Origin: Plumapathes pennacea
Lineage: Eukaryota > Cnidaria > Anthozoa > Antipatharia > Myriopathidae
Assembly: GCA_964036295.1 (NCBI GenBank)
Contig: OZ038464.1
Coordinates: 18,584,443 to 18,648,442 of the forward strand
Direction: 5' to 3'
Length of the DNA stretch: 64,000 nucleotides
Part shown: piece after piece, positions 3,193 through 27,354 of the stretch
Layout of the letters: each line of letters begins with the position of its first letter
Numbering within the stretch: the first letter of the stretch is position 1
The notes under the pieces: generated by a model
Databases searched by the model: none
What the model saw: the letters and a program-made list of their open reading frames with translations, nothing else
What the model was told of the DNA's origin: nothing
Program-made: the position numbers and the translations under genes

Positions 3193-3393
3193 ATCTGACT
3201 CCTTGCCAAGCTCAGTATGAACAAGCTTTAACCCTCCCCTCCGTGGGACGCTTTTTGCCCAAGTGTAAGCGGGATGGTAGTTTTGAGTCCACACAGTGCC
3301 ACGGCTCAACTGGACACTGCTGGTGCGTTGATGGAGATGGTGTTGAACTTCAAGGATCACGAGTAAGGGGAGATGCAAAGTGCTCCAAACCTG
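3193..3393 (+). CDS. Inhibitor gene visible exon 1: thyroglobulin type-1
   Basis: 67 codons, phase 1 to phase 1, after a TTGTTGCTTCAG acceptor and before GTGAGT. The frame contains LTPCQAQYEQ, FLPKCKRDGSF, STQCHGSTGHCWCVDGDG and AKCSKP. The QC...CWCV core defines the thyroglobulin type-1 domain, a module often linked to inhibition of cysteine proteases. It needs at least one upstream exon. Confidence 0.9.
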
Positions 3394-6300
3394 GTGAGTT
3401 GCATTTTCCCATTCTTTCTTTTTCATTTTTTGATTGTTCTTTTTCTTTTTCTTGATCTTGTTCTCGTTCTTGTTCTTGTCCTTGCTCTTTTTCTTGTTCT
3501 TGCTTTTGCTATTGCTGTCGTTCTTGTTCTTGCTTTTGTTCTTTTTCTTGCTCTTGTTCTTGCTCTTGCTCTTGTTCTTGTTCTTGCTCTTGTTCTTGCT
3601 CTTGTTCTTGTTCTTGTTCTTGCTCTTGTTCTTGCTCTTGTTCTTGTTCTTGTTCTTGCTCTTGCTCTTGCTCTTGTTCTTGTTCTTGTTCTTGTTCTTG
3701 TTCTTGCTCTTGCTCTTGCTCTTGTTCTTGCTCTTGCTCTTGTTCTTGTTCTTGCTCTTGTTCTTGCTCTTGTTCTTGTTCTTGCTCTTGCTCTTGTTCT
3801 TGCTCTTGTTCTTGTTCTTGTTCTTGCTCTTGCTCTTGCTCTTGTTCTTGCTCTTGCTCTTGCTCTTGCTCTTGTTCTTGCTCTTGCTCTTGTTCTTGTT
3901 CTTGTTCTTGCTCTTGTTCTTGCTTTTGCTCTTGTTCTTGTTCTTGCTTTTGCTCTTGTTCTTGCTCTTGTTCTTCTTCTTGCTTTTGTTCTTGTTCTTG
4001 CTTTTGTTCTTGCTCTTGCTCTTGTTCTTGTTCTTGCTCTTGTTCTTGCTTTGCTCTCGCTCTCGTTCTTGCTCTTGCTCTTGCTCTTGTTCTTGCTTTT
4101 GCTCTTGTTCTTGTTCTTGCTTTTGCTCTTGTTCTTGCTCTTGTTCTTCTTCTTGCTTTTGTTCTTGTTCTTGCTTTTGTTCTTGCTCTTGTTCTTGTTC
4201 TTGCTCTTGTTCTTGCTTTGCTCTCGCTCTCGTTCTTGCTCTTGCTCTTGCTCTTGTTCTTGCTCTTGTTCTTGCGCCAAATATTTTTAGTGTAATTCAT
4301 TAAACTTTTGATTCTCCCCAGACCCCTGTGCAAGGAAGACCTGTAATAACTATGGAAGGTGTGTCATCAGTGGAGCCGACGGTTTAACAGCCGTGTGCAA
4401 GTGCCCCTTGGTGTGCCCCTTTATATTCGCCCCTGTGTGCGGCAGTGATGGAAAGACTTACCCAAATACTTGTCAGCTGCATTCGACATCATGTACTGAG
4501 GAAAGAGAGATAAGAATTGCTTACCAAGGAGAATGTGTGTCAGGTACTTAACTTCAGCAAGTTTTGGGAATTCTCTCGTCTTTCAGTTGATCCAGGACAG
4601 TTTCCTGGGTTAGCACGTCTTGGTGCTTAACGGGCTAGTAGACCTTCTCTTTCTCCCCATTTCCTCATTCATTGCACAGGTATTTTCGTCAGAAGGCTCC
4701 ACTTTCTATACACAAATATCGAAAAAGCAATATGATTCAGTTTCTGTAAGTTTCGTTAGCTCATTTATAACTTGACAGTTCAATTTCCAGATACGTTAGC
4801 TGATACGCGTGAAGTACGGTATCCGCGTTTGATTACGTGAGCGAGAAGTATATATTTACATGGGTGAGCTCCCTGAATCCGGGCGGTCGCACCTGTGCTA
4901 CCTGTTAGCTGATGGCGAGTGAGGCAGCAGAAAATGTTTCGAGTTTTAACATGCTTTATTCCATTTATATTCCGCGTGGCAAACTGCTATCTAACCTGAA
5001 CTGTAGAGCATTTGTGTGAGCCGGCCAAGGGAGATTAGTCAACTTTAGATACATATTTGATCATATTTACATGGTATTTGCACACCATGTTGTGATGTAT
5101 TGTGAAGGGAACCTTACTTATTTTTTGCAGTCGCCCCGTGTGCGTCGGTGAAATGTGACAACTACTCACAGTGCCTCGTGTTGGACGGTGTCACTCAGTG
5201 TGTCTGTTTAGGTACTGAATATCTGCCGTGTGAACCAGTGGACAAGCCGGTGTGTGGGTCAGATAAAGTCATATACGACAGTTTGTGTCATCTACAGAGC
5301 GCTGCTTGCATCAACGAGAAGGACATTGTGCCTGCCCTTCCAGAGTTTTGTGGTCAGTGAATATTAACCCATCGGTGTTAACCCTTTTACTCCCAAGAGT
5401 GATCAACTTTGATTTTCTCCTTCAGTTTCTCACCAGAAATATATCGTATAGTAAGGAGAACTTGGCTTTTGATACCTTGCTCAAATGATAGCTGATTAAA
5501 CTATCAATTCTCGCTACATCGCTCATACATTTTCCTCTTAAAAGGTTGGGAGAATCTGCATTTTGAACTTGGGAATGAAAGGGTTAACCCAAGGTTGATG
5601 TGGATATGCCCTTCATTGGAAAAGCCAGCAAGATTAACTTTTTCGTTTCGTTTCAGAAGGAAGAGTTGAGGTGTGTGACAAAACCAAATGCGCCCATCCC
5701 GAACAGCAGTGTGTCAGTGAAGATGGCCGCCCCGTGTGCAAGTGTCCCGAGCGCTTGTGTACAAAAGAAATGGATCCTGTGTGTGGAACTGATGGGCAAA
5801 CATATCCTACAGAGTGCATGATGAAGCTTCTGTCGTGCGAAAATAACAAAGTCGTAACTGTTGACTACAAAGGAAAATGCGGAGAGAAACCAGGTAAGTT
5901 GAGTTGGAACTTCTACTACTGGTCACTCAAATGAAAACTCTCAATGAGTTTGGACAGAGAAACATGGTTGTTAAAGGGTAAAACTACATTTAACGGTAAC
6001 CCATTTGTTAGCCATTCACCCTTTCGCTCCTGAGTTCAGATTACAAATTCTCCTAACTATTCAAGAAGAAAATGTATGAGTGAGAGTTGATAGGCCAATC
6101 AGCTTTCGTCTGAATGAACTATCAAGTAGCAAATTCTCCCTACTGTATGATATATCTCTGGTGAGAGACTGAAGGAGAGAATTGAAGTTGATCACTCTCA
6201 GGAGTGAAAGGGTTAAGGCTCTACATTCCTTCTAAGTAGTACGTATTCAAGGTACAAACTTTCTCAATTAACTCTAATTCTGTTGATATCTTCAGAGGTT

Positions 6301-9300
6301 GCAAAGCTAAGTGTGCAAGATGCCTGTGAACCGGTGTCCTGCAGCCACCCACTGCATGAATGCAGAATGATCAACGGCACAGCGACCTGCGTGTGTCAAA
6401 CTGCAGTTACTCTGGACTACCGGCCCGTGTGTGCCTCAGATGGAAAGACCTACCCTAACAAAAGGTCCATGGATGTTGAAGGCTGCCTCAAACTTCAGGT
6501 TCTTACAGTGGAAAAGGAAGGAAGCTGTAAGTAGTAGTGTTACGTTTAAATCATTCAGATGAAATCTCGTAATGAGTAGTGCGGAGTACGGTACATTCTA
6601 GTAGCAGTGTTTGCGTTCCTGTAGTGTGGAATTTTGTTTGCCGCGTTATCACTTTCACTGTCAAAGGTGACCTCGACTCAACCTAGAAAACTTCCAACTC
6701 TTGAACTGTCAAACGAAGCCCGAAGGCGTGGCCACTCAAATGAAAGCTCTCGATGAGTACATTCTAATATCAGTGTTCACTTCCAACTCTTGAACTGTCA
6801 AGTAAAACATAAAGGTGTGACCACTCGAACCAAACCTCTCAACGAGTACATCGTAATAGCAGTGTTCACTGCCATCTCCTGAACTGTCAAATGAAACTTG
6901 AAGGTGTGACCGCTCAAATGAAAGCTCTGGATGAGTACTTTCCAATAGCACTGTTCATGTTGTTGTTGTTGTTTACAGGTTTGTCTGACCCGTGCGAAAT
7001 CTCCTTGTGCAGCCACAAGCGACATACCTGCAAAGTTGTTGATAAAATAGCCACTTGTGTGTGCAACACCGTGTGTACGATGGAGTACGCTCCTCTGTGT
7101 GCATCTGACGGGAAAACGTACAGCAACGCATGCGCAAAGGATGTGGAGGAATGCCAGACAGGGAAAAAGCTTCGTATCTTGAGAATGGGAGAATGCAGTA
7201 AGTAGACGTAGTCTGGCAGGAAAACTGTTGAAATTTATGTTCACCCGTGCGACGCCCTCTCGACCACAATCCTTTGCGCGCCGAAATCCTTGATCTATCA
7301 TTTTAATTCAACGACACACATTCTGGATGCAACAAAAACATCGAATTGGGTAAGATCATAAAACTTGTTATCCTTCGGACGCACACGCGTGCAGTGAAAC
7401 AGCAATCGGTTTGTGTTCGTGTGTTTTACAAATCGCAGTGTGCCTTTCTCAAAGAACTGTGAACTGGTGGAATCATTGGCTAAAACGAGTTCCCTTCTAA
7501 TCCAACATGGCGGACACCTTTTCGAGGCGCGTGAAGACTTGTGGGTGTTTTATTTTTATACCATGGACGCTGACTGGCTGACACTTTTGTTTCAGCTGCG
7601 GAGGATCAGATAAAACCTGGCAAATGTCCAAAACCGACCATGGGACTTGGCGGTATTTGTAATATGCGTGCTGATGAATGCAGCAAAGACTCGGAGTGCA
7701 GTGGCTCCAAGAAATGCTGTTTTAATGGCTGTCAGAGAGACTGTGTCGGACTTGGTAAGTACGTCACGATGAGAGCTTTTATGTGACGTCATGACGGCTA
7801 TGTTGGATGATGCTTATTGGCGTCCATTGTATGTGACTCTAAATATGGCCGAGATGTCGTTGTAATTGAACATTCAGAGATTGGTTAAACTGTCAATAGG
7901 CCTCATTCATTATGACGTCAGTTGGCTTAGCGCGCAACGGATGCTGGTTATAGTAGTCACGGCATAAACATAATGCTGCAGTTAATTGTAGGTTGGTTGT
8001 GATCGTCCGGGTTTAGAGTAGTCTCCAGGAAGACTATTGTTGGTGACTAACAACAACAGTCTTCCTGGAGACGACTCTAACCCGGACGATTACAACAAAC
8101 CTACTATTCACACTCCTATGTTCAAACCATTTGCCATGCAGTTAATTGTGTTGAAGTTCTTTATGGAATTTATAGTTTTTCTCAAAGCTTTTGCGTTGGT
8201 GGAAAGACGTCTCACCCTCATGATTATATTAGCAGCATGATGTATTAGCATGCAACACATCTCTTCCAGCGGAAGAGCCAAACGTGGCTGTTTCACGTGT
8301 TTATGTAGCAACAAGAGGAGTCATCAGATGAGAATGATTTTAATAGACAATACATCATCAGAAGGATCAAATGTCTTGAAAACGGCCGACATTTGTGAAA
8401 TCCGTGACTACTAGAACCAGCATTCATTGCGTGCATCAAGGCAACTGACGTCATAATGAATAAGTCCTTTTCCATACGACATTCGCAATTGAATTGTCAC
8501 TTTGTCACTGAAATGACATCGGATTAATTGCAGGTCTGGAGTGTCCAGAGCAGTGCGATGTCAATGCTCAGTGTGTAGAGTTTGCTATTGGTGGAAGACG
8601 GTGCGTCTGCAACGATGGATACGAAGGAAATGGAGCACAATGCAAAGGTGAGTGATGCGTCACTTCCGTTGGTATCTGAAATTTCCAACCTCGTGCCGAG
8701 GGCCATCCGCGCGAGAAGCCCCTAAAATGACCGCCCACGCGGATGGCCCCGGGTACGAGGTTGGAAATTTCACATCTTGTGCAAGCCCTGTGTTTTGTTG
8801 TTGTTGTTGTCTACAACCTATGTTGCAGAAAATAATTATCGTGGACTACTTTGTACTAGCGAGTTCTGAAGTTTTGAATTTTTTTGCCCAAATCTCACTG
8901 GTTTTACAAGCGTTTCATGAAGTACAAAAACTGAACTTGAATTTGCTTTCGTTTCTACTCTAACTCCTGAACTGGCAAAATAAAGGAAACCTAAAAGTGT
9001 AGCCATTCAAACGAAACATCTCGATGATAATATTCTAACAACGGCGTTAGTTTTGGTGTTGTGTTGACGCATTTTATACTTCAATCTTCAGAGAGGGAAT
9101 GGCAGTTAGGGGGTATTGCTTCGTCTCTGTATTTACATTTAGTTTGTTTGCTCTCAGCCAATCCTTGCAGCGGAAAGGAATGTCCCTTCTATGGAGAATG
9201 CAAAGTGAACAATGGCACAGCCGAGTGCGCATGCGCAGTCATATGCCCCTTGATCATCATGCCTGTATGCGGCTCTGATGGCAAAATCTATAGCAATGAA

Positions 9301-12300
9301 TGTTTGATGAAAGCAGAAGCTTGCAGACTGAAAAAGGTCATTACTTTGGACCAGAAGGACAAGTGCCGTAAGTCCCCTTGGTGCTCTATTTGTAGTTGAA
9401 CCAAACCCCTGTCACGTTGCGCCGTGTTCAGTGTGAATATTGACCCTAACTGTGTGCATTTTGCAGTTGAATCAAACCCCTGTGGCGCTGCGCCGTATTC
9501 AGTGTGAATATTAACCCTGACTGTGTCTATTTTGCAGTTGAATCAAACCCCTGTGACGCTGCGGCGTGTTCAGTGTGAATATTGACCCTGACTGTGTCTA
9601 TTTTGCAGTTGGATCAAACCCCTGTGACGCTGCGGCGTGCAGTCATCCTGAACAGCAGTGTTTCGTGGATTCTCGTGGAGCTGCGTCTTGTGTTTGTCCT
9701 CCTATGCCTTGTACCAGAGAACTTGTGCCCGTATGCGGCTCGGACGGTGAAACCTACTCCAACGCATGCGAGATGAAGAGGCGCAGCTGTGAAACCGGCA
9801 AAGAGATCAAAGTCGCCAGTCAGGGCGTGTGCCCCACAGTTGACGACAGTAAGTTTCTGGTGGACCCGTGTGTCGGTTGCTGGTTGTGTTAGTTTCTGGT
9901 CACTTGTCTCATATAAACCTTGTGTAGGCACACTGCTGTCTTCTTCCAGTCTGTCTGTTTCTCGCTGTGTTAGTTTCTGGTCACTTGTCTCATATAAACC
10001 TTGTGTAGGCACACTGTTGTCTTTTTCCAGTCTGTCTGTTGCTGGTTGTGTTAGTTTCTGGTCACTTGTCTCATATAAACCTTGTGTAGGCACACTGGCG
10101 TCTTTTTCCAGTCGGTCGGTTTCTGGTTGTGTTAGTTTCTGCTCACTTGTCTAATATAAACCTTGTGTAGGCACACTGGCGTCTTTTTCCAGTCGGTCGG
10201 TTTCTGGTTGTGTTAGTTTCTGCTCACTTGTCTAATATAAACCTTGTGTAGGCACACTGGTGTCTTTCTTCCAGTCTGTCTGTTGCTCGTTGTGTTAGTT
10301 TCTCCTCACTTGTCTCGTATGTCTCATATAAACCTTGTGTAGGCACACCGGTGGACCCTTGTGGAGAATCGCCTTGCACTCATCCGTTGCACACGTGTGA
10401 AGTGATGGAGAGGAAAGCGAGATGCGTGTGTCCACTCACCGTGACCGCCAACTATGATCCGGTGTGTGGCTCCGACGGCAAGACCTACGTGAACGAGAGG
10501 TCCCTTGAAGTGATCAGTTGCCTGTCTAATAAACTTGTCACTTCTATGCAGAAAGGAGAATGCCCAGGTAATAAGGACATACCAACCTGGCACCGCGGAA
10601 ACACGGAATTTAGGAAAATGTGTTCAAGTCATGTAAAACCTGTGGGCGTTTCAGATTTTTATCCAAACTAGTTTTGAGCCGATGGTTGATGGATAAGAAA
10701 TTTGGCATTATGTTTCATAATGTTTGTACAGTACAGTCAACTGCCTCTAAGACGGACACCTTCGGTACCAGTATTACTGTCCGTTTTACAGAGGTGTCCG
10801 TCTTAAAGAGAGTTCAGTTAGAGTGAATGACTGAAAAAACGGCAGTGTCCGCCTTAAAGGGGTGTCCGTTAAGAGGGAGTTGGCTGTAGCTGTCCGTTTT
10901 TTTTTTGAGATCATGGAAAAGTCCATATTTCTGTGTGGACCCCGTCAGTCATATCTTCCTTGTTTCAACAGCCAATGCAGTTTCTCGTTTCTTTTCACAG
11001 AACTGGTGGATCCGTGCGACATCTCTCTGTGTAGTCACCCTAAACACAAGTGTCACGTGGTCCAGGGCGTGGCAACGTGTGTGTGTCAGGAAGCGTGCCC
11101 TCTCTCGCTTGATTACGTGTGTGCATCGGACGGGAACACTTACCCTAACCAGTGTGCAATGGAGGTTGAGGGCTGCAAGACCAACCAACGACTGAAAGTG
11201 GAAAAGCGCGGGAAATGTGACGAGTGCCCTGTGTTTCAGCCAATGCCCGTGTGCGCGTCGGTACAGGAAGACTGCTCCACTGACGATGACTGCTCGTCAG
11301 AACAGAAGTGTTGTTTGTATACCGACTGTACTAAGGTGTGCTTCAACTCAACTCGTGCAGGTGAGTGGGAATGTCTTGTTTGCCCCTTTCCGTGTCATCG
11401 GAGTGCAGCTAATCTGGTTACTGAGAAATGAGATCTTTTCTTCCGTGTAAAAAAAAAAAAAGGATTTTTCTGTCCTCCAGAAATTAAGTCTGTAATTAAA
11501 GAGTGTTAACCTTTCATTCCTGGGAATGATCAACTTCAAGTTTCTTTTTTTCAGTCTCCCACCAGAGATATATAATAAAGTATGAAAAATTTGGCATTTG
11601 ATACCTTGCTCCAACGACAGTTGATTAAAACATAAACTCTCTTTTCATCACTCAACACCTTTTTTGTTGTATGGTTGGGAGAATTTTTATTTTGAGCTTG
11701 GGAGTTAAAGGGTTAACCTTTTCATTCCTGGGAGTGATCAACTTCACTTCTTTCCCTCTCGTCCGCCGTTTTACGCATAAATAGCTCACTAATTTTTGCA
11801 ATATATCTGGTAGGACAGCCTGCGTTTTACACGGAACGGTTTTCGTTTGAAAACGATACGCTTTAACCGTCCGTCTACACGAGAACGATTGAATTCAGCG
11901 AAGAAAACGCATCGATCTGAAAACGCAGCACAAAAGTGGAGCGTTTTCAAAACGCTTCGGTTTCTGTTCTGGTGTAAACATCAAAACCGAGAGGTGAAGA
12001 CTTATCGGCGTGTAAACGCAACCTGATGTTTCCTCTGAAATCCAACAGTTGTGATACCTCCCAGCAAGCCAGGAATCTGCCCTATTCCGTCCAAGGGACC
12101 GGGCGATATCTGCGATAGACGAAGCGATATGTGTGGAGACGACTTTGACTGCACTGGGAAGAAGAAATGTTGCACAAATGGCTGTCAGAAGGAATGCTTG
12201 GAGCCAGACGCTGACCGTAAGTACTGTGGTATTAATTGCATTCTCCTGACCATTTAGCGAGAATTGATAGTTTAATCAGCTGTGAACTGAGCAAGATATG

Positions 12301-17390: not shown

Positions 17391-17421
<31 letters not shown>

Positions 17422-20400: not shown

Positions 20401-22694
20401 TATTAAGTGCTCAATTTTAGATAGGTATTCCTGTGGAGAGCTAGGGGGTCTATAAATATTTGCCACAATAAAGGGTTTAGTATATGGTTTGATTACTTCA
20501 ACGCACACTCCTTCAAGTCCATCCATTACCAAATCCTTTCTGTGAATGTAATTAATGGTGTTTTTTAAGTAAATGCCCACACCCCCACCTGTTCTAGCAC
20601 GGTCCTTACGAATCAGTTCAAACCCTTTTATGTGCATTTCCGCGCTTGAAACCGTGGAGTCTAATCGAGTCTCATTTAAAGCAAATAAATCGAAAGGTTG
20701 ATCATGTAATAGTACACGTAGCTCATCAACGTGCTTTGGCAAGCTGACCACATTCAAGAGGGCCATTTTAAAACCCTTTGTCATTAAACTATCTTTAGAT
20801 GATTTATGTTCAGTTTCCTTTCCTGCAACATTAAGGCCATCATCCCTTTGTAATCAATTAGAATTAATATACTTATTTAGATTTGTAGCTAGGTATGATA
20901 CTCCTTTCCCATTTAAATGCAGCCCTTTGGAATTCAGGCAACTACTATCGATGTTACCATGGGAAATAAGTTCCCAGTTGCGAGACTTGCAAAATTTGCG
21001 AATAGCTTTATTTACACTGTTTGCTTTCGAGCAAAGCTGATCGTTGTCCGAGCGAGTAATCAACTCAGAAATAGCTACATTCGATTCTGGTAATTCTTGA
21101 CAGAGAAATTTGATGTTGATTATTTTTGAGAGTGAAGGAGTTAACTCGGCTGCACAAATACACGGCTGTACAAATAGTTGTTTTTGTTGGTCTTGTAGGA
21201 AAAGAGTGTCCTGCAGTAAACCCCATGCTTGTGTGTGGTTCGATAGTTTCCGACTGTAAGGCCATTGACGACTGTCCTCCTGGCCAGCAGTGTTGCCTTG
21301 ACAACACGTGCATCCGGAAATGCGTACCTTCCATCCTTACACTACCGTCAGGTATGCGCTAATTTACTGAATAAAACGTAAACACCACAAGTTACAAAAC
21401 AGAACCTTGCAAGATTATCTTTTCGTAGAAACTGAGAGTTCTTAGAAATTAATACAAATGCTTGCGTTTCTTGGTTTTCCTCAGAAATTTGGAGCTTTTT
21501 TCTAAGAAATTGAGACTTTTGATTGTATATATTTAGATTTGAACCCGTTTTCTCTGCTTAACTATTTTTGCTTTCCCTAAGAAATTTAGAGGGGATTTTT
21601 TTCTGATAAATTGAGACTTCTTGTTGTATATTTAGATCTGAACCCATTTTCTCTGCTCATGACTATTTTTGCTTTCCCTAAGAAATTTGGAGATTCTTTT
21701 CTGATAAACTGAGACTTCTTATTGCAAATATGTAGATTTTAACTCCTTTTCTCTGCTTAACTATTTTTGCTTTCAACAAGATATTAAGAGTTTTTTTGTC
21801 TGATAAATTGTATATTTAGATCTGAACCCGTGTTCGTTAATGAACTATTTTTGCTTTCAATACGAAACTTAGAAATTTTTGTCTGATAAATTGAGACTTG
21901 TTGTTGTACATTTAGTTGTGAACCCGTGTTCGCTGAAGAACTGCGCTGACCCGTATTCCAAGTGTGAAATGATGGACGGTAAACCCACGTGTGTCTGCCC
22001 CACCATCTGTACGCGGGACTTAACTCCTGTCTGCGGAACCAACAGAAAGACGTACGACAACAAATGCTTGATGGAAGTTGACGCTTGTCAGAACGGATAC
22101 ATGATCCGTGTCAAGTACGATGGCATATGCCAAGGTTGGTGAACATTCGGTTTCGCATTACATGAAGTTACAGTCATGGTCATGTTTTGTGCCTCACATT
22201 GTCGTCACAGTCCCCTTCCCTCTCCCCTTTCACTTTTGGAAAGCGTGAAAAGTTCGTTGTCAAGTGCTCAGCATTATGTAGGGAAGGGGAAGACGCTTAA
22301 TAAGTGTAGAATCTGTGTATTGAGAGCTGCATTCAAAATATGTCGCACATGATCTTGACCAGGATTGGAGCAGTGGAAACTGGCGATGTTTGCTCTTAAC
22401 CCTTTCACTCCCAAGAGTGATCAACTTCAATTTTCTCTTTCAATTTCTCACAAGAAATATATCATACAGTAGGGAGAACTTTGCTTTTGATACCTTGCCC
22501 ATATTAAAGCAGATTGAACTATCAATTCTCACTACATTACTCATACATTTTCCTCTTAAAAGGTTGGGAGAATCTGCATTTTGAGCTTAGGAGTGAAAGG
22601 GTTAACCGGGTACTTAAATTAGTCCGTGTGCTGCCAGAGAGGTTGCCGGTCGTGAACAACGGTTTTCGTCGTTCATTCTTCCTAAAACTTTCTT

Positions 22695-22742
<48 letters not shown>

Positions 22743-25700
22743 GTTTGCAGATAAACCAGGTTATTGTCCTACCACTGATCCTATGGATTGCGAAGAGCAC
22801 ACGAAAATTAACGAGTGTGAAGAAGACTCTAACTGCAGTTCAATATTGAAGTGTTGCTATAACGGCTGTAACAAGCGATGCACAAACCCGCTCCCTACCC
22901 CCAACAATGGACCAGCCCGACCAGGTGCGTTGAACTCACAATGTAAATTCTCCCAAATTCTCCATACTGTATGATATATCTCTGGTAAGAGAGAAAATTG
23001 AAGTTGATCATTCGTGGGAGTCAAAGGGTTTTCACTCGCAAGCATTCTCCCAACCATTCAAGAAGACGAAAACGTATGGATGGTGCAGTGAGAACCTCTT
23101 ATCTGAGCAAGCTATCAAAAGTGCTGTGATTAAAACATCAATTCTCGCTTGTTTACTCATGCATTGCCGTATAAATAGTCGAGAGAACTTGTCTTTCAAG
23201 CATCTGTCATTGTTCTGTAGATGCTGCCAAGCTTTCTGGAGAAGAGGTGAAGGTAGAGTTGAAATGTCCCGAACCTTACAAGGGAAAAGATGGAATCTGC
23301 GACAGAATGGGCAATGGATGTGAAGAAAACGGCAACTGTTCTGAGCACAAGATGTGCTGCTTCAATGGCTGCCAGAAGGAATGTCTAAAACCAGTTAGTG
23401 CGTCAAGATCAGGTGGGGCATGCCATGAGAACTTCCCCTCCTCCCCCCTCCCCCCTCGCCCCAACTTTTGCGCTCACCCGGCCTTTCGCGCGGCCAAAAT
23501 CGAAAAAGTCGTCGTATTCTCAGGGTTCGTACGGGTCATGAAAAACCTGGAAAGTCATGAAATTTTCGAATTTCATTTTCCAGGCCTTGAAAGTCATAGA
23601 ATTTAAGTGTAGGTCATGGAAAGTCATGGAAAATGACGTTCATTGTACGAAATGAATTTCTTGTGAAAGAAAAAAGCGAAAATGAGTCGGGAAACGGACA
23701 GCTTTTGTTCATTTTCGAAAACAACTGGTCAACTTTAAGTCATGGAAAACTTTAAAAGGTCATGGAAAGTCAGGGAATTTCAAAAGCCTAAAAGAGTACG
23801 AACCCTGTATGCTCTTCGTATCGAGGGGAAATGCTTGTTGCGCAGGCTGCATCTGGTTTGATTTTGTCCATGGTGTAATGGGCAACTGAAGAAAACTAGG
23901 ACGTCGACGGCAACGCGAGAACCACAAAAAGTTATCCGTATTCCTTGTCTCTGTAACCTTTCCACTTCTTAGGTTGTTCAATTTGTTTCATTTTAGCCAA
24001 GGTTCTATTTCGTTATCGTACCGTACTAAGAAAGATAACTGTCTTAAGTTCTCGAAATGTCGTCCACGCTCTGAAGCGTTTGAAGTCGCACGCGAGAGCA
24101 CGGCGACATCAAGATCAGCTCACTCATTTCACTTAATCTCGTGCACCTTTTGTGTTCTGCGATTGGTTTTGTTTTGCCGAGGATGTCTTCGTCGTTCTGG
24201 ACTTCTTGCTAAAGTTCCCTAATTGATTTTAACTTTGTTTTTACAGTTAAACACTCAGATAAGTGTCCGTTGTACAACCCAATTCCTGCGTGTGGTTCAG
24301 TGTCTGCCAACTGCACATCCAGCAATGAATGTCCACCGGGTGAAAGTTGTTGTCTGGACGACCAGTGCAACAGAAAATGCGTTGCTAAAGTTGACCCCCC
24401 ACCACCAGGTAAGACACTCAAATATCCAGATATCACATCCCACTAGTGCTGCAATTGTCCGTCGCTAAATACAAAAGCCATTAAAGTGGAATCCCGCCAT
24501 AACGGCCAGTTCGTTATTACGGCCGCTATTTTTTTGTCCCGCGGAACAAACGCCTAGTAATTTTCTTATCTGAAAACTCCGTTGATACGGCCAGATTTTT
24601 ATTTTCGGTGGTGGCCGTATTAAGGGGGTTCCACTGAAGCTTCAACCTGAGAAACATGAGGTATAAGAGATTTTAAGGATAATTTGTTCCCATGGTTATT
24701 TTTGTTGTTATTTTTGTTTTTCATAGAGGTAGGTTGCCCAGCCCTCGACCCCATGCCTATGTGTGGTTCGATTCTCTCTGCCTGTGAAGCTGATGACGAC
24801 TGTCCACCCGACCAGCAGTGTTGCCTTGACGACACTTGCACCCGGACCTGTGTACCTTCCATCCCTACACTGCCCCCAGGTATGCGCTAGTTCACTGAAT
24901 AGCACGTAAACATCGCTGACACATGCCAAGCTACGGAACAAAACCTTGCTAGAAATCGAAAGTTCTTAGAAATTGATACTAAACCGTGTTCGCTGATGGG
25001 GTCAATTCAATAAAACACAAGTATAATTACAAGTTTGGACGGTCGAAGACTTCTTGCGCGCAATGGACTGAAGACTCCTTGAACTTGCACTCCAAGTATG
25101 ACATTGCCCTTCCTTCCTTCCCTCTCTTTCTTCTGGTTGTATGTTAGAGGAAAGAGCGTTTGAACTAAACGGGTGGTTCTTCTTTTCTTCCCCCAGACGT
25201 ATGTAAGTTGCAGCCCGAGGCCGGTCCGTGCATGGCCAACATTCCGTCATTCTTCTTCAATGCTACGTCACAACAGTGTGAGGAGTTCGTTTACGGAGGT
25301 TGCCGTGGTAACGAGAACAGATTCCTAACTCCGGAGAAGTGCATGCAGACTTGTGGAAGTACGTACATCAAAATATGTCCTCATTTTACTTTCTGAAAGT
25401 AAGCTGAGGATGATTGAGATCTGTCCAGGCTAAATGCGAGCTGAGTGTGACGAGTGGACGTTTCTCGGATTGATATAACTTGACAGTGTGAACGCGCCTG
25501 GTTTTGTTCATATCAGAAAATGTGTAAAGGGCTGGTTTTTGTTTGCCAGGGAATCGATCGATGAAAAAATATAATGCTTGGCCGAAGATCGTCTGCGCGA
25601 GTGAAAATGAACGCGTTTAAAACTGGGAGGTCTGGACGCGAGCGGCGGAGCGTTTTGTTTTGTTGTTTGTTTGTTTTTTCATTCGCGCGTACAATGTTTT

Positions 25701-27354
25701 GCCAGAAAAGGAGAGACTGGCACAGTCGAGGCGAAGTGAAACTAGCCTTATTAAGGAAATGCCGATTGCTTTTGGTTGTAGGGAGGGGAGGGGGGGGGGG
25801 GGCTTAATTTCTTGCGTGCAATGGACTGAAGACTCCTTGAACAGGCGCTGCGGAAAGACGTTTCTCGACCTTATTTGCGAATCAGCGGTGAAAATCACAA
25901 CAAATTAAAGTGCAGTTTTCGTAGTTCGTGCAACGCTTATAAAACCTCCACGACTTAACCAGGAAAATCAAAATTAAGACTCGTTACTCAAGTATACGTT
26001 ACTTCAATAAATTTCCTATAGTACAAGTCGTGCACATTAAAGACAGGGCTTGAACGCGCATGACGTGATTTGATAACGCTGACCAACGGAAGTGACGTCA
26101 AGAACGTATATCTGCGGTGCCCCTAAAACAAGGTCGGTGCGTCTTCCCCTCTGTGGATTGGTTTGATTTTACTGTGTTTAGTTTCAGTGGAGGTACCTCA
26201 CTCTGACGACCCGTGTAAACCCGAGACCTGCGACTACTACGGTAAATGTGAAGCGACCAAGGGGGGTGGAGCGGTCTGTGTTTGTCCTACCGGGTGCGAG
26301 AAGATTTATCGACCGGTGTGTGGATCGGATGGGATCGTGTACAACAATGAGTGTGAGATGAAGGTGAAGGCGTGTCAGAACCAAGTCATGGTGGAAGTGG
26401 TAGGAGCACCTGAGATGTGCGGTAAGTATCGACTTTACGGGAAAGTATTGGGGGAGTCCATCTTCGCCGTCAGGGGTACGTAACCAAGGGAGTCCCATTC
26501 TGGCCGTCAGGGGTAAACTAATGAGGGAGTCCGTCTCGGCCGTCAGGAGTGGGGGAGGGATTACTATGGAAAATTACTGGGGAGTCCTTGCTGGTCGGGT
26601 ACATTACTGTCTGAAACAGCAACGAACACAACCACGATAGCGACTGTAACAAAATCAATCAAAAGACCGACAACAGTGAAACTACCGACAAAAGAAACTG
26701 ATCTCGTGTCTTAATTTGTTTCAGCAACAAACACAACGATAGAGACTGCGTATCGTCTGTTACTAAATTTCGGCTTTTGTTTTTTATTTGGTTTTCCTTT
26801 TAGGATCAAAGAAAAAGCAAAAGTGCCAGGGCTGCCCTGTGAGATCTGGTTTTACCGACCATTTCTGTAAAAACGACTTTGGTGAGTCCAATCATCTTGT
26901 TCTCCAAACTGTGTTGTCATAAGTTTCAAGATGGCGGCGCTCGGGAAATTTAAATGAGCTTTTGAATCGGTCCATAAATGGCATCTAGGAATTTTCAGAA
27001 AAACTAAACTGTTTTTTCTTCTTCGTGGCAGCCGTGCTTGCGAGGCTGAGGAAAATCGAAGTCACTGGAAACAAATCTAAGATCACAGTAACAATCATGG
27101 AAGTTTTCAAGGGTCCTACCCCTGCCCCACAAGGAGACATCGAAATAGTCATCAACGAGAGCCTGGACTCATGCATGTGTAAAGGCCTGGAGCCACGCCC
27201 TCATATTCTCCTAATGGCGGGAAACATCGCGGACGGCGTGTTTTATATCGACGACACTAGTTACGTGCGTTACTCGCATCATATGCTGCGCACAAAGGCG
27301 CAACTACTGAGCAAGGTGCACCTCACGAAGTGCAAGGACAAAAACGAAGACTAA
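3193..27354 (+). CDS. Giant WFIKKN-like multidomain protease inhibitor (gene span, 30 visible exons)
   Basis: The joined visible exons encode about 1,974 residues of a cysteine-rich extracellular protein. Order: thyroglobulin-1; five Kazal/follistatin-like; WAP; EGF; three Kazal; one exon with Kazal plus WAP; WAP; Kazal; four WAP; Kazal; two WAP; Kazal; four WAP; Kunitz; Kazal; NTR. WAP, follistatin/Kazal, Kunitz and NTR are the modules of vertebrate WFIKKN proteins, which have one or two of each plus an Ig domain; here Kazal and WAP are each present 13 times and no Ig domain is seen. Kazal, WAP and Kunitz modules commonly inhibit serine proteases. Every exon from the first to the next-to-last is a multiple of three and every intron is phase 1. 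That agreement supports the hand-placed boundaries. The first exon(s), with the start and presumably a signal peptide, were not found. Agrin-like or papilin-like names would also fit parts of it. Stop codon TAA is at 27352-27354. Confidence 0.88.
3425..4275. repeat. CTTGTT/CTTGCT hexamer satellite, about 850 bp
   Basis: Almost uninterrupted CTTGYT hexamers fill most of the intron between exons 1 and 2. The plus strand is nearly free of A. A higher-order repeat of about 167 bp is visible at the right end: the variant CTTTGCTCTCGCTCTCG occurs near 4049 and again near 4216, with TTCTTCTTCTTGC variants similarly spaced. All frames stay open, giving spurious Leu/Val/Ala or Glu-Gln proteins. Confidence 0.95.
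4322..4543 (+). CDS. Inhibitor gene exon 2: Kazal/follistatin-like domain
   Basis: 74 codons, phase 1-1. The frame begins DPCARKTCNNYGRC, continues CKCPLVCPFIFAPVCGSDG and ends YQGEC. A short EGF-like hairpin precedes a non-classical Kazal core with PVCGSDGKTYPNTC. All six Kazal cysteines are present. Confidence 0.92.
5131..5352 (+). CDS. Inhibitor gene exon 3: divergent Kazal domain
   Basis: 74 codons, phase 1-1, acceptor TTTTTTGCAG, donor GTCAGT. The frame has APCASVKCDNYSQC, YLPCEPVDKPVCGSD and SLCHLQSAAC. The usual GKTY is replaced by KVIY, the most divergent core of the set, but the cysteines are kept. Confidence 0.88.
5378..5587. mobile_element. TTAA-family MITE, complete copy
   Basis: This element of about 210 bp is bounded by TTAACCCTTTTACTCCC and GGGAATGAAAGGGTTAA, which are inverted copies with the TTAA shared. 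There is no coding capacity. TTAA ends suggest mobilisation by a piggyBac-type transposase, which is inferred from the target preference only. Confidence 0.85.
5657..5893 (+). CDS. Inhibitor gene exon 4: Kazal domain
   Basis: 79 codons, phase 1-1, donor GTAAGT. The frame has VCDKTKCAHPEQQC, CKCPERLCTKEMDPVCGTDG and TECMMKLLSC, ending GKCGEKP. Complete Kazal cysteine set. Confidence 0.92.
6018..6216. mobile_element. TTAA-family MITE, opposite internal orientation
   Basis: The left end carries CACCCTTTCGCTCC and the right end GGAGTGAAAGGGTTAA. The core ATATCTCTGGTGAGAGACTG reads as the reverse of the copy at 5378, so the two lie in opposite orientations in neighbouring introns. Confidence 0.8.
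6296..6526 (+). CDS. Inhibitor gene exon 5: Kazal domain lacking one disulfide pair
   Basis: 77 codons, phase 1-1. The frame has DACEPVSCSHPLHEC, CVCQTAVTLDYRPVCASDG, KTYPNKRSMDVEGC. The second and fourth Kazal cysteines, found in neighbouring repeats as CPxxC and NxC, are both absent. The codon for the final cysteine is split by the phase-1 intron. Confidence 0.9.
6660..6960. repeat. Tandem array of a dispersed unit of about 90 bp
   Basis: Three to four diverged copies of a unit containing CTCCTGAACTGTCAAATGAAA, AAGGTGTGACCACTCAAATG and GATGAGTACATTCTAATAGC. Single or few copies recur at 8960-9050, 16360-16570 and, reversed, 48375-48450. The last unit here runs up to the acceptor of the next exon. 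Confidence 0.75.
6979..7197 (+). CDS. Inhibitor gene exon 6: Kazal domain
   Basis: 73 codons, phase 1-1. The acceptor follows a short TGT/TTG repeat. The frame has SDPCEISLCSHKRHTC, VCNTVCTMEYAPLCASDG and NACAKDVEEC, ending GEC. Full cysteine set. Confidence 0.91.
7596..7754 (+). CDS. Inhibitor gene exon 7: WAP four-disulfide core
   Basis: 53 codons, phase 1-1. The frame has KPGKCPKPTMGLGGICN, CSKDSECSGSKKCCFNGCQ and RDC. The eight cysteines with the central KCC and following NGC define a WAP domain, a frequent inhibitor of elastase-type serine proteases. Confidence 0.93.
7904..8465. mobile_element. Foldback element with long inverted ends and an internal palindrome
   Basis: The outer arms of about 60 bp (from 7904 and ending about 8465) share ATTCATTATGACGTCAGTTG and CTAGTAGTCACGG-type blocks in inverted orientation. 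Inside, 7990-8103 is a second hairpin whose arms share GTCTCCAGGAAGACT and ACCCGGACGAT. No protein frame of note. It is a non-autonomous foldback DNA element. Confidence 0.8.
8534..8647 (+). CDS. Inhibitor gene exon 8: EGF-like domain
   Basis: 38 codons, phase 1-1, the smallest module. The frame is LECPEQCDVNAQCVEF, then RRCVCNDGYEGNGAQC. Six cysteines in EGF spacing with the CxCxxGYxGNG signature. It is the only EGF module seen in the gene. Confidence 0.92.
8677..8771. repeat. Short perfect-ended hairpin (about 95 bp)
   Basis: GAAATTTCCAACCTCGT at the left is mirrored by ACGAGGTTGGAAATTTC at the right, with GGCCATCCGCG and CGCGGATGGCC inside. It is a small foldback repeat just downstream of the EGF exon. 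Confidence 0.85.
9158..9367 (+). CDS. Inhibitor gene exon 9: Kazal domain
   Basis: 70 codons, phase 1-1. The frame has ANPCSGKECPFYGEC, CACAVICPLIIMPVCGSDG and NECLMKAEAC, ending DKC. Complete cysteine set. Confidence 0.92.
9385..9640. repeat. 71-bp tandem array spanning an intron 3' end and exon start
   Basis: Four copies with acceptor-like TTTTGCAG/TTTGTAG positions at 9392, 9463, 9534 and 9605, exactly 71 bp apart. Each copy holds the acceptor plus a version of the first bases of exon 10 (AACCCCTGTG...GCTGCG). Only the last copy continues into the full Kazal exon. Confidence 0.92.
9609..9848 (+). CDS. Inhibitor gene exon 10: Kazal domain
   Basis: 80 codons, phase 1-1. The frame has SNPCDAAACSHPEQQC, SCVCPPMPCTRELVPVCGSDG and NACEMKRRSC, ending GVCPTVDD. 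The start of this exon lies inside the preceding 71-bp array. Confidence 0.92.
9888..10345. repeat. 81-bp tandem array ending at a splice acceptor
   Basis: About six units start with GTTAGTTTCTGGTCAC at 9888, 9969, 10050, 10131, 10212 and 10294, spacing 81 bp except the last at 82. Every unit includes CCTTGTGTAGGCACAC, the sequence used as acceptor and exon start by exon 11 at 10343. The array fills nearly the whole intron. Confidence 0.95.
10343..10567 (+). CDS. Inhibitor gene exon 11: Kazal domain lacking one disulfide pair
   Basis: 75 codons, phase 1-1, donor GTAATA (non-consensus fifth base). The frame has VDPCGESPCTHPLHTC, CVCPLTVTANYDPVCGSDG and NERSLEVISC. As in exon 5, the second and fourth Kazal cysteines are both missing. 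Confidence 0.91.
10732..10888. mobile_element. Mariner/pogo-like MITE
   Basis: Ends TACAGTCAACTGCCTCTAAG and the inverse GAGGGAGTTGGCTGTA, with repeated GGTGTCCGTCTTAAAG-type internal blocks. TA at both ends fits Tc1/mariner-type insertion. Confidence 0.75.
11001..11360 (+). CDS. Inhibitor gene exon 12: Kazal plus WAP in one exon
   Basis: 120 codons, phase 1-1. The first part has VDPCDISLCSHPKHKC, CVCQEACPLSLDYVCASDG and NQCAMEVEGC (Kazal). It runs without an intron into DECPVFQPMPVCASVQEDC and SEQKCCLYTDC (WAP). This is the only exon with two modules, probably through intron loss. Confidence 0.92.
11506..11716. mobile_element. TTAA-family MITE, followed by a partial copy
   Basis: TTAACCTTTCATTCC at the left and GGGAGTTAAAGGGTTAA at the right. 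A second, truncated left end follows at once (TTAACCTTTTCATTCC, 11713-11755), which suggests tandem or nested insertion. Confidence 0.75.
12049..12216 (+). CDS. Inhibitor gene exon 13: WAP domain
   Basis: 56 codons, phase 1-1. The frame has SKPGICPIPSKGPGDICD, DMCGDDFDCTGKKKCCTNGC and KEC. Eight cysteines present. It is closest in style to exons 7 and 24 (ICD, KKCC, NGC). Confidence 0.92.
12588..12824 (+). CDS. Inhibitor gene exon 14: Kazal domain
   Basis: 79 codons, phase 1-1. The frame has LNPCAITLCEFPYRC, CNCPKFCTREYVPVCGSDG and NECELQVKSC, ending GPCE. Full cysteine set. Confidence 0.92.
13497..13658 (+). CDS. Inhibitor gene exon 15: WAP domain (copy A of a duplicated pair)
   Basis: 54 codons, phase 1-1, donor GTGGGT. 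The frame has KQDQCPLFNPTPSCAF, CNSSDECPPNEKCCLDDQC and TRCVAALVLPTP. It is almost identical to exon 17 over the whole module. Confidence 0.93.
14046..14201 (+). CDS. Inhibitor gene exon 16: WAP domain
   Basis: 52 codons, phase 1-1, acceptor TTTTTACCAAAG. The frame has GCPVLKQTPICGSIVSYC, EDDTCPRGLECCVDNSC and KKCVPSRTPRGPP. It pairs with exon 18. Confidence 0.91.
14430..14591 (+). CDS. Inhibitor gene exon 17: WAP domain (copy B)
   Basis: 54 codons, phase 1-1, donor GTGGGT. The frame has LDQCPLFNPTPMCASRT, CNSSDECPPNAKCCLDDQC and TRCVAALVLPTP. Sequence identity with exon 15 continues past the donor into the intron (GTGGGTAA-ACAGGAACA), which shows a segmental rather than retro-type duplication. 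Confidence 0.93.
15137..15380. mobile_element. MITE with inverted ends of about 33 bp
   Basis: CTCTCACCGTAGATGCTTTG near 15142 is mirrored by CAAAGCATCTACGGTGAGAG near 15354-15373, each with an inner GCGCGCCCA block. Flanks ATTAAGC and TTTAAGC may be the target duplication. Confidence 0.8.
15482..15637 (+). CDS. Inhibitor gene exon 18: WAP domain
   Basis: 52 codons, phase 1-1. The frame has SGCPVHRPAPVCGSLTSTC, EDDTCPNGLKCCMDKWC and MKCMPPSSPVGAP. It is the partner of exon 16, so exons 15-16 and 17-18 look like a two-exon duplication. Confidence 0.91.
15656..15840. mobile_element. TTAA-family MITE, truncated at the right
   Basis: Starts TTAACCCTTTCACTCCTG and keeps the core ATATCTCTGGTGAGAGACTG, but stops after GTTGATCACTCTC without the right terminal repeat. 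The hAT-like element begins 13 bp further on. Confidence 0.78.
15854..16133. mobile_element. hAT-like MITE, copy 1
   Basis: Left end AGGGTTCGTACGGGTCATGG and right end GAGTACAAACCCT, with internal GGTCATGGAAAGTCATGG repeats. The flanking octamers CTTCGTAC and GTTCGTAG match at six of eight bases, compatible with a decayed 8-bp target duplication. A second copy is at 23522. Confidence 0.78.
16630..16960. repeat. Unclassified dispersed-looking repeat
   Basis: Left GACTGTCGAAAGTAATCGTG and right GGTTTTGGTTTTCGACAATC are loosely inverted, with several GATTGG/CCAATC boxes between. No coding potential. It ends about 40 bp before the acceptor of exon 19. Confidence 0.5.
17003..17233 (+). CDS. Inhibitor gene exon 19: Kazal domain
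   Basis: 77 codons, phase 1-1. The frame has SNACASHRCDRPFARC, CTCPLICTLDYNPVCGSDG and NECRLRASAC. The core has GNEY in place of GKTY. Confidence 0.92.
17612..17773 (+). CDS. Inhibitor gene exon 20: WAP domain
   Basis: 54 codons, phase 1-1, donor GTGGGT. The frame has HSCPLFNPTPICGSVVVKC, SSDECSPNEKCCLDDGC and KRCVAGLILPPQ. It belongs to the same subfamily as exons 15 and 17. Confidence 0.92.
17956..20784 (-). CDS. LINE ORF2: endonuclease-reverse transcriptase
   Basis: 942 uninterrupted codons. Residues about 1-225 are an APE-type endonuclease (NETRLD, GGGVGIYL, YRPP, GDLNCN near 143, SLLDVIITN, GISDHSLV near 209). Residues about 430-720 are the reverse transcriptase with RPISVLPVISKVFE, NQFGFRKMHST, FLDLKKAFDTVNHG, GVPQGSILGPLLFLVYINDL and the catalytic FADDT near 665. 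The C-terminal LQNRAARLI segment is common in CR1/L2-type elements. No stop or frameshift is seen in this frame, so the protein could still be functional, although the element lacks a full ORF1. Confidence 0.93.
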   Translation of the reverse strand: MTKGFKMALLNVVSLPKHVDELRVLLHDQPFDLFALNETRLDSTVSSAEMHIKGFELIRKDRARTGGGVGIYLKNTINYIHRKDLVMDGLEGVCVEVIKPYTKPFIVANIYRPPSSPQEYLSKIEHLIERVDSEEKELHLLGDLNCNYIANPHDQNTVDLISLCDLYQLTQLIKQPTRVTDKTSSLLDVIITNEPDKIIASGVQHLGISDHSLVFAVRKLNRIKSKTVKVIKARNLRSLNVTEFCSDLENQPWSDLDQLEDTNEMWLAWKNMFTSIVDIHAPLKSKRVRSNNLPWITKEIRTIIHKRDKMKRHFVITKHPDSWTAYKALRNKATIEIRSAKRAYYNSEINKQMGDPKRTWKTINQLIGKQKCSQTISELKIGNKSVTSSVEIAETFNNHFVSIGPKLASGNTDSNSFKDFVRPVSYVFEFKPTSSRKVFKLIDTLCTSKATGLDGISARLLKYAAPVISQSVTNLFNKIISCGQFPSDWKNARVSPLHKSGPRNSVDNYRPISVLPVISKVFERILYYQLYDYLTLNNILSENQFGFRKMHSTVTAMLNSTNTWLINMDQGLFNIAVFLDLKKAFDTVNHGILLEKLEIYGIRNNLLLRSYLSERKQSCLVDNSQSSKKLITCGVPQGSILGPLLFLVYINDLPNCLESAMPSLFADDTHITISGHDISDIEEKANSELNNISKWLLANKLHLNVAKTEYMLIGSRQRLAAIVDKPEIKIGVMPIRRVEQTKSIGIVLDEHLSWNKHLEHITKKIASGLGAIRRCRPFVPQSTLIDIYNSLIQSHLDYCCEVWDTIGVTASEKLQKLQNRAARLILRADYNTRSKSLLDQLGWEKLNERRAKQKAVMMYKVRNSSAPSCLTALFKTVAETNSYNLRGSSTKVYLPRPNTEFMKKSFSYNGATTWNKLPIGLHKATSLKSFRSKLKAINLLDA
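20854..21063 (-). pseudogene. LINE ORF1 C-terminal fragment
   Basis: 69 codons ending 69 bp upstream of ORF2 on the same strand, with ISHGNIDSSCLNSKGLHLNG and SYLATNLNKYI. That pattern fits the C-terminus of the SGNH/esterase-like segment found in ORF1 of several CR1/L2-type elements. The 5' part is absent, so this is a truncation remnant. Confidence 0.7.
21199..21351 (+). CDS. Inhibitor gene exon 21: WAP domain (copy A of a second pair)
   Basis: 51 codons, phase 1-1, donor GTATGC. The frame has KECPAVNPMLVCGSIVSDC, DDCPPGQQCCLDNTC and RKCVPSILTLPS. Very similar to exon 26, including the intron start GTATGCGCTA. Confidence 0.92.
21440..21925. repeat. Degenerate tandem array (84-101 bp units) ending at a splice acceptor
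   Basis: About five diverged units, each with an ACTATTTTTGCTTTC block (starts near 21561, 21662, 21760 and 21844), TTGAGACTTCTTGTTGTA and a TTTAGATCTGAACCC block. The last version, TTTAGTTGTGAACCC, is the real acceptor and start of exon 22. Confidence 0.88.
21916..22134 (+). CDS. Inhibitor gene exon 22: Kazal domain
   Basis: 73 codons, phase 1-1, donor GTTGGT. The frame has VNPCSLKNCADPYSKC, CVCPTICTRDLTPVCGTN and NKCLMEVDAC. Core is RKTY. Full cysteine set. The exon start lies inside the upstream array. Confidence 0.92.
22396..22605. mobile_element. TTAA-family MITE, complete copy
   Basis: TTAACCCTTTCACTCCCA at the left and TAGGAGTGAAAGGGTTAA at the right: the clearest terminal repeats of the family in this window. 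A partial copy with GTGGGAGTCAAAGGGTT lies at about 22931-23031. Confidence 0.87.
22694..22745. repeat. (TTG)n microsatellite at a splice acceptor
   Basis: About 15 uninterrupted TTG units end a few bases before the TTTGCAG acceptor of exon 23 and take the place of the usual C-rich polypyrimidine tract. Confidence 0.95.
22751..22924 (+). CDS. Inhibitor gene exon 23: WAP domain
   Basis: 58 codons, phase 1-1. The frame has KPGYCPTTDPMDC, INECEEDSNCSSILKCCYNGC and KRCTNPLPTP. Proline-rich linker at the end. Confidence 0.9.
23221..23412 (+). CDS. Inhibitor gene exon 24: WAP domain
   Basis: 64 codons, phase 1-1, donor GTGGGG (weak). The frame has VELKCPEPYKGKDGICD, GCEENGNCSEHKMCCFNGC and KECLKP. 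Longest N-terminal linker among the WAP exons. Confidence 0.88.
23522..23806. mobile_element. hAT-like MITE, copy 2
   Basis: Same family as 15854-16133. Ends AGGGTTCGTACGGGTCATG and GAGTACGAACCCT. The flanking octamers GTATTCTC and GTATGCTC match at seven of eight bases, as expected for an 8-bp hAT target duplication. Confidence 0.85.
24247..24408 (+). CDS. Inhibitor gene exon 25: WAP domain
   Basis: 54 codons, phase 1-1. The frame has SDKCPLYNPIPACGSVSANC, SSNECPPGESCCLDDQC and RKCVAKVDPPPP. Subfamily of exons 15, 17 and 20. Confidence 0.92.
24485..24635. mobile_element. Mariner/pogo-like MITE
   Basis: Left end AGTGGAATCCCGCCATAACG and right end GGGGGTTCCACT, with ACGGCCAG and GGCCGTAT in inverted positions. 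Confidence 0.72.
24727..24879 (+). CDS. Inhibitor gene exon 26: WAP domain (copy B of a second pair)
   Basis: 51 codons, phase 1-1, donor GTATGC. The frame has GCPALDPMPMCGSILSAC, DDCPPDQQCCLDDTC and RTCVPSIPTLPP. The intron start is also like that of exon 21. Confidence 0.92.
25197..25358 (+). CDS. Inhibitor gene exon 27: Kunitz/BPTI domain
   Basis: 54 codons, phase 1-1, donor GTACGT. The frame has VCKLQPEAGPCMANIPSFFF, QQCEEFVYGGCRGNENRF and KCMQTCG: six cysteines in Kunitz order with the conserved FVYGGC. The position that usually dictates specificity (after GPC) is Met, where trypsin inhibitors have Lys or Arg, so a chymotrypsin- or elastase-like target is more likely. It is the only Kunitz module. 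Confidence 0.94.
26188..26421 (+). CDS. Inhibitor gene exon 28: Kazal domain
   Basis: 78 codons, phase 1-1. The frame has DPCKPETCDYYGKCEATK, CVCPTGCEKIYRPVCGSDG and NECEMKVKAC, ending EMC. Last of the 13 Kazal modules, placed between Kunitz and NTR. Confidence 0.92.
26430..26560. repeat. Minisatellite, unit about 45-55 bp, three copies
   Basis: Repeats of GGGAGTCC followed by a CC-GTCAGGGGT block, directly after the donor of exon 28. Units drift in length. Confidence 0.7.
26804..26881 (+). CDS. Inhibitor gene exon 29: NTR domain, first part
   Basis: 26 codons, phase 1-1. The frame has KKQKCQGCPVRSGFTDHFC then KNDF. The spacing of cysteines before FCxxDF is the start of a netrin-like (NTR/TIMP-fold) domain. 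Confidence 0.88.
27032..27354 (+). CDS. Inhibitor gene exon 30: NTR domain, remainder and stop
   Basis: 107 codons and a stop. The frame has AVLARLRKIEVTG, TVTIMEVFKGPTP, DSCMCKGLEPRPHILLMAG and VHLTKCKDKNED. With exon 29 this gives six cysteines in NTR order. It is the C-terminal module, as in WFIKKN proteins. Confidence 0.9.

Follow-up and report, generated by a model that had tools for sequence, protein, structure and literature searches.

In Nematostella vectensis, a protein of 4,887 residues with WAP and 18 Kazal modules is described in a paper on the evolution of the GASP/WFIKKN proteins, whose authors relate its Kazal modules to those of follistatin and follistatin-like 3 (PMC3427181). 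A separate Nematostella gene described there encodes 292 residues with IGc2, Kunitz and WAP modules (PMC3427181). In the skeletal organic matrix of Corallium rubrum, four agrin-like proteins with series of Foln/Kazal domains were observed by mass spectrometry, and one of them is among the ten most abundant proteins of this matrix (PMC7853314). A figure legend in the same paper names C345C (netrin C-terminal), EGF-like, FOLN, TY and WAP domains and also covers seven proteases; the word Kunitz is absent from the main text (PMC7853314). The Exaiptasia pallida protein named Agrin (Aipgene27786) is predicted to be secreted, has 10 Kazal domains and is 2.5-fold upregulated in the pedal disc (PMC6626399), and a sea-anemone proteome includes an agrin-like Kazal protein (PMC10058367). 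In the Nematostella matrisome, more protease inhibitors, of the TIMP, Kunitz, Kazal and thyroglobulin-repeat types, are reported from adult than from primary-polyp mesoglea (PMC12549020). The kazal2 protein of Hydra is described as an inhibitor of serine proteases that is made by gland cells and acts against staphylococci (reviewed in PMC4820302).

Two families with related modules are relevant. The WFIKKN1/2 (GASP) proteins are described as having one or two of each of their modules, plus Ig (PMC3427181). Agrin has SEA and C-terminal laminin-G domains, and has been confused with epaktologs, which share with it mobile modules only (PMC3927612).

The window, a stretch of 64,000 nucleotides from Plumapathes pennacea, carries one long animal gene. 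Almost all of its exons, which number 30 or more, are interchangeable follistatin/Kazal (FS) or WAP cassettes. As the earlier note had proposed, the 30 exons (positions 3193-27354, plus strand) join in a single frame: the spliced sequence of 5,930 nt encodes 1,975 amino acids without an internal stop and ends in TAA. The predicted product has a mass of about 213 kDa and a pI of 5.3. The order of modules is Tg1 (thyroglobulin type-1) - FS x5 - WAP - EGF - FS x4 - WAP x2 - FS - WAP x4 - FS - WAP x2 - FS - WAP x4 - Kunitz - FS - NTR, with one exon per module, except that FS9 and W2 share an exon and the NTR module occupies two. All 29 introns are of the GT-AG type (donors GT 29/29, acceptors AG 30/30); the donor of W5 was placed by eye after position 14201 (gtgagatt). 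The 254 cysteines of the model are divided among FS (126), WAP (104) and the Tg1, EGF, Kunitz and NTR modules (six each, counted by eye), the number being even in every module.

All 29 introns lie in phase 1, and the length of every exon but the last (29/30) is a multiple of three. The initial search for internal exons looked for phase 1-1 exons and used generic splice weights, and thus the phase count alone is circular. Hence a control search was made in all phases with uniform criteria, namely a splice score, eight or more Cys and an open frame. On the gene strand, it produced 24 clusters of FS/WAP-like exons in phase 1 against one in phase 0 and one in phase 2. The reverse strand of the gene region yielded 0/0/0 clusters, the remaining 36.6 kb of the window 0/1/0 on each strand, and ten triplet shuffles one cluster altogether. 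The 24 clusters stand beside 25 FS/WAP-coding exons in the model as totals, not paired one-to-one. The uniform phase and the divisibility by three, both claimed before, are borne out.

The first exon of the model (3193-3393, Tg1) has both an acceptor and a donor, and its reading frame has no upstream Met. Since the model begins at an internal acceptor (position 3193), the gene has 30 exons or more, and its true start lies elsewhere than the first exon of the model. An ATG-to-donor search for a signal-peptide exon in the region 600-3190 found no convincing candidate. The most hydrophobic one, 1657-1723, has a donor score of -1.7. Two others, 1012-1138 and 1012-1162, are less hydrophobic, with donors of 1.1 and -1.4, and a further upstream candidate is only four residues long. 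An amidohydrolase gene was identified by Pfam at 5-709 on the minus strand.

With symmetrical exons everywhere except at the end, the frame would survive a division at any intron, and two or more adjacent genes could have been read as one, for example Tg1-FS-WAP and WAP-Kunitz-FS-NTR. These two would be divided at the largest intron, of 3,425 bases between W8 and W9, which contains an antisense LINE reading frame of 965 amino acids with endonuclease and reverse transcriptase (17959-20853, minus strand). On the other hand, W8 and W9, which flank this intron, resemble the WAP pairs W4-W5, W6-W7 and W12-W13 in a partly supported tree, and no second NTR module was seen in the 20 of 42 open reading frames scanned. 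A division into two or more genes seems to us quite improbable, and we infer a single transcript whose product, to judge from the types of modules, is secreted.

All kinds of modules listed in the earlier note were found by Pfam domain profiles. The match of Tg1 to Thyroglobulin_1 (PF00086, 1.5e-18) was obtained with this module as the sole query, and was missed with a query of 1,014 residues. The EGF-like module (8534-8647) matches EGF_3 (1.8e-8). The count of 13 Kazal and 13 WAP modules stands as well, Kazal_1 and Kazal_2 matching 13/13 of the former and the WAP profile 13/13 of the latter. What changes is the nature of the Kazal modules, which, to judge from their cysteine pattern and from PDB matches to agrin and follistatin, are follistatin modules. 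Ten cysteines are present in 11 of the 13, four of them preceding the Kazal part; FOLN is absent among the Pfam matches of these modules.

In 11 of the 13 FS modules, all six cysteines of the Kazal part are kept, together with a C-x7-C loop like that of ovomucoid domain 3, and the loop ends in PVC in 11 of 13. In Kazal inhibitors, P1 is the residue two positions after the second Kazal Cys. By this rule, P1 is Phe in FS1 (4322-4543; Kazal_2 2.8e-13), Pro, making a poor inhibitor loop, in FS2 (5131-5352; 1.4e-8), Lys in FS3 (5657-5893), Leu in FS4 (6296-6526; 1.5e-8), Met in FS5 (6979-7197), Leu in FS6 (9158-9367), Arg in FS7 (9609-9848), Ala in FS8 (10343-10567; 1.3e-9), Leu in FS9, which precedes W2 in their common exon (11001-11360), Arg in FS10 (12588-12824), Leu in FS11 (17003-17233; 1.2e-10), Arg in FS12 (21916-22134; 6.3e-10) and Lys in FS13 (26182-26421; 7.2e-7). 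FS10 (CTREYVPVC) and FS11 (CTLDYNPVC) have near-textbook Kazal loops; that of FS10 aligns with CTLEYRPLC of ovomucoid domain 3, and the structure model of this module has a mean pLDDT of 90.2.

A suitable P1 residue together with intact Kazal cysteines and spacing is found in 10 of the 13 FS modules, five of them basic and five hydrophobic. FS2, with Pro at P1, and FS4 and FS8, from which Kazal cysteines two and four (C2 and C4) are missing, look inactive as inhibitors. This leaves ten Kazal loops that look competent for inhibition, given the P1 rule and the alignment with ovomucoid.

In the Kazal fold, the second and fourth cysteines pair with each other. FS4 and FS8 have lost this same pair, with the same replacements by Val and Arg; Val is encoded by GTT and GTG in FS4 and FS8, and Arg by AGG in both. 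The last Cys codon of FS4 is split by an intron. Each of the common replacements is at least two base changes away from a Cys codon, which favours a single origin. It is also possible that the loss arose by convergence or conversion, as FS4 is overall nearer to another module, FS9 (58%), and the tree of FS modules lacks resolution. The common motifs and the Val/Arg replacements suggested a block duplication FS3-4-5 -> FS7-8-9. This was not established: the mean identity is 47.9% for the collinear pairing against 49.9% for the alternative one, the closest relative of FS4 is FS9, and none of the ten inner branches of the FS tree is supported.

The WAP modules are W1 (7596-7754; PF00095 1.1e-11), W2, W3 (12049-12216), W4 (13497-13658), W5 (14046-14201), W6 (14430-14591), W7 (15482-15637), W8 (17612-17773), W9 (21199-21351), W10 (22751-22924), W11 (23221-23412), W12 (24247-24408) and W13 (24727-24879). 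WAP inhibitors of the SLPI/elafin type have an eight-residue C2-C3 loop and a large or Ala P1. The loop has six residues in 12 of the 13 modules here and eight in W10, and it opens with Gly in six modules, Ala in three, Asp in two, Asn in one and Glu in one. The WAP loops are thus short and unlike the inhibitory loop of SLPI and elafin, and we do not count these modules as inhibitors. To judge from the loops, about one module in two may have no inhibitory role. The earlier note's idea of a broad inhibitor agrees with about ten of the Kazal modules, and maybe with the Kunitz module, but not clearly with the WAP modules, with their six-residue loops (12/13) and frequent initial Gly (6/13).

In a search of PDB with the FS profile, the best chain is agrin (1.8e-92 over nine stretches, a score that sums many domains). 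The profile also matches follistatin, rhodniin (1.1e-14) and the elastase inhibitor 1y1b (4.9e-14), which we take to be from a sea anemone. Scans of contigs were uninformative: one of 15 pattern matches of the FS profile in viral contigs was confirmed (L001, 41% identity, query residues 31-66), and two of 16 matches of FS9-W2 in genome contigs (L002 and L003, both bacterial contigs).

In agrin and follistatin, FS modules commonly bind rather than inhibit. The protein could be a structural matrix protein or proteoglycan core, in which FS and WAP modules form a stiff cysteine-rich rod binding glycosaminoglycans, growth factors or mineral, and inhibition is incidental. This would agree with the best match to agrin, with the WAP loops, which look non-inhibitory, and with what has been proposed for the agrin-like proteins of red coral, described as constituents of the skeletal organic matrix, one of them in the top ten by abundance (PMC7853314). 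However, the Kazal loops, with Lys or Arg at P1 in five of 13, large hydrophobic residues in five more, and intact C2 and C4, are more inhibitor-like than a rod requires. Moreover, the initial version of the joined model, with 1,971 residues, has only six Ser-Gly pairs as candidate glycosaminoglycan sites. We regard an essentially structural role as possible, if somewhat doubtful.

The C-terminal part contains the Kunitz module, FS13 and the NTR module. The Kunitz module (25197-25358; PF00014 1.2e-19) has Met at P1, as has domain 1 of bikunin when the two are aligned. SmCI and bikunin are its top matches in PDB, and no WFIKKN chains are among the best 60 of 109 matches. The NTR module is encoded by the exon 26804-26881 (CQGC..FC) and by the last coding exon, 27032-27354, with the TAA stop. 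The two exons jointly match the Pfam NTR profile (2.8e-8) and TIMP (3.1e-5), and there are weak PDB matches to netrin-1 (3.1e-4), sizzled and TIMPs. The metalloprotease inhibitors of the TIMP family need a free N-terminal Cys of the NTR domain. Here NTR is C-terminal, with other modules before it, its N-terminus is not free, and it cannot act in the TIMP manner.

The combination of FS, Kunitz and NTR at the C-terminus recalls WFIKKN, and the earlier note took the gene for a massively expanded cnidarian relative of that group. This is not supported. The 30 exons contain one Kunitz module instead of the two characteristic of WFIKKN, and no Ig domain was found in them or in the 20 of 42 non-exon reading frames of at least 70 amino acids that were scanned, a search that could miss a short or split Ig exon or an Ig domain before the window. 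The WFIKKN label thus fails two defining features.

A related possibility is that the protein antagonizes ligands of the TGF-beta family, trapping them with FS and NTR modules in the manner of WFIKKN or follistatin. FS13, which adjoins NTR, scores 30.4 bits against WFIKKN2, near the best single agrin domain (34.7) and above the best follistatin domain (23.7); a pancreatic trypsin inhibitor (37.5) exceeds every single agrin domain. By whole chains, which favours those with many domains, agrin ranks first for FS13 and WFIKKN2 14th of 53. FS10 is far closer to agrin (49.7 bits) than to WFIKKN2 (29.4), although comparisons of FS and Kunitz modules with WFIKKN are limited by the few WFIKKN chains in PDB. 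Another point in favour of an antagonist is a gene 5.6 kb downstream: reading frames with activin-receptor (Activin_recp) and protein kinase domains at 32960-37359 (plus strand) probably form one receptor gene. However, neighbouring genes in animal genomes are mostly unrelated in function. Given also the lack of an Ig domain in the exons and reading frames scanned and the single Kunitz module, there is little chance that ligand trapping is the main function. The other Pfam-identified genes downstream are a caspase (43585-45198, plus strand), Mob1/phocein (56881-57450, plus strand) and S-adenosylmethionine synthetase (62813-63346, minus strand).

The reading we prefer, with a probability of roughly 0.55, is that the gene encodes a cnidarian FS/WAP "agrin-like" protein that would be secreted, held in the matrix or mucus, and act as a multi-headed serine-protease inhibitor, with the WAP modules, FS4 and FS8 as spacers and NTR as an anchor. 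About ten intact Kazal heads with Lys, Arg, Phe, Met or Leu at P1 would, through the standard mechanism, each target one or another enzyme of the trypsin, chymotrypsin or elastase type, and the Kunitz module would supply an extra head with Met at P1. The main role of the WAP modules and the two FS modules lacking the disulphide would be that of rigid spacers or units for ligand binding, while the NTR end might help to anchor the protein or bind matrix partners. In favour of this reading are the matches of the FS profile to rhodniin and an elastase inhibitor, and the cnidarian proteins of this kind from skeletal matrix (PMC7853314) and pedal disc (PMC6626399). If the ten intact heads do inhibit, this would be a natural multi-specific inhibitor, relevant to the protection of cnidarian matrix, mucus and skeleton from proteases. 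One could go further and view the polypeptide as a programmable panel of protease traps, in which the order of the ten heads (five with basic and five with hydrophobic P1) is a selected specificity code, and FS4 and FS8, whose inhibitory function was switched off when they lost the C2-C4 disulphide in a coordinated way, were retained for binding of a different kind. We consider this extension unlikely.

The gene would have grown by duplication of symmetrical phase-1 exons, singly or in small groups. The suggestion of the earlier note that symmetric 1-1 exons allow modules to be added in frame is supported, and duplicates are visible. The DNA of the W4 and W6 exons is 89.5% identical and that of W9 and W13 75.8%; W7 and W2 were also included in the list of DNA identities. 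The match of W4 and W6 (13485-13676 and 14418-14609) reaches no further than 12-18 bases into the introns, a pattern that points to conversion confined to the exon or to rapid intron turnover.

In the WAP tree, W1, W3, W10 and W11 are separated from the other nine modules (support 97/99). W4/W6 (95/89), W8 (82/88) and W12 (87/93) are successive relatives, W5 groups with W7 (81/75), and W9 with W13 (71/85). This partly supported tree suggests that an A-B pair of WAP modules is repeated four times, as W4-W5, W6-W7, W8-W9 and W12-W13. The dN/dS ratio is 0.15-0.52 in the nine of 13 module pairs with defined dS, none of the pairs involving W2; dS exceeds 1 in six of these nine and is undefined in the remaining four of 13. 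For the four FS pairs, dS is undefined in two and above 1.5 in the other two. As paralogous exons of different age adjoin, exon duplication and the loss of inhibitory heads can be traced in one gene. The single intron phase and the layout with nearly one exon per module make the gene an unusually clear example, at the genomic level, of growth one module at a time.

The gene contains several kinds of repeats. In introns, an array of 140 copies of the hexamer TTGTTC occupies 3434-4274, and an 81-base tandem repeat (5.5 copies) is found at 9871-10320. A 71-base tandem repeat (3.6 copies) lies at 9385-9639; its unit has TTTTGCAG, followed by codons that, by eye, resemble the start of FS7. As the unit mimics the beginning of this exon, decoy acceptors may precede the true one. 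Dispersed intron repeats, each some 200 bases long, present in either orientation and approximately 72-93% alike, were found at 5378-5589, 6013-6199, 11503-11718, 15654-15840 and 22396-22607; perhaps they are a short mobile element.

With WFIKKN1/2, the gene has WAP, follistatin/Kazal, Kunitz and NTR modules in common. With vertebrate agrin, it shares the tandem FS modules, and agrin is the best PDB chain for the FS profile, FS10 and FS13. However, no Pfam matches to the SEA or laminin-G domains of agrin were observed in the 30 exons (first 1,014 residues, last 267 residues and module alignments); WAP, Tg1, Kunitz and a C-terminal NTR take their place, and the gene ends with NTR and the stop codon. 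The N-terminal NtA domain of agrin would belong to the 5' end of the gene, for which the search upstream of 3193 found no exon. Applying the term ourselves, we think that the gene is an agrin epaktolog, alike through common mobile modules. For such mosaic proteins, database names like "agrin" or "WFIKKN-like" can mislead.

The nearest counterparts are in cnidarians. The protein of Exaiptasia shares the series of Kazal domains, while no WAP, Tg1, Kunitz or NTR is named for it in the published description (PMC6626399). The 4,887-residue protein of Nematostella, to go by its description, is alike in having many FS/Kazal and WAP modules, and is longer; no Tg1, Kunitz or NTR module and no order of modules is given for it there (PMC3427181). 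The domains in the legend for the octocoral Corallium rubrum are nearly the present set, if, as we read the legend, they belong to the agrin-like proteins (PMC7853314). In a full-text literature search, figures and supplements aside, no statement of the exact order of modules was found. The earlier note counted as a refutation that the same long architecture were already described in many animals; this is in part the case, as similar long cnidarian FS/WAP proteins are in print. Judged against these published descriptions, the gene, with its many FOLN/Kazal and WAP modules together with TY and C345C/NTR in one long protein, belongs with them: it is a well-preserved and large further case of the FS/WAP kind reported in sea anemones and corals.
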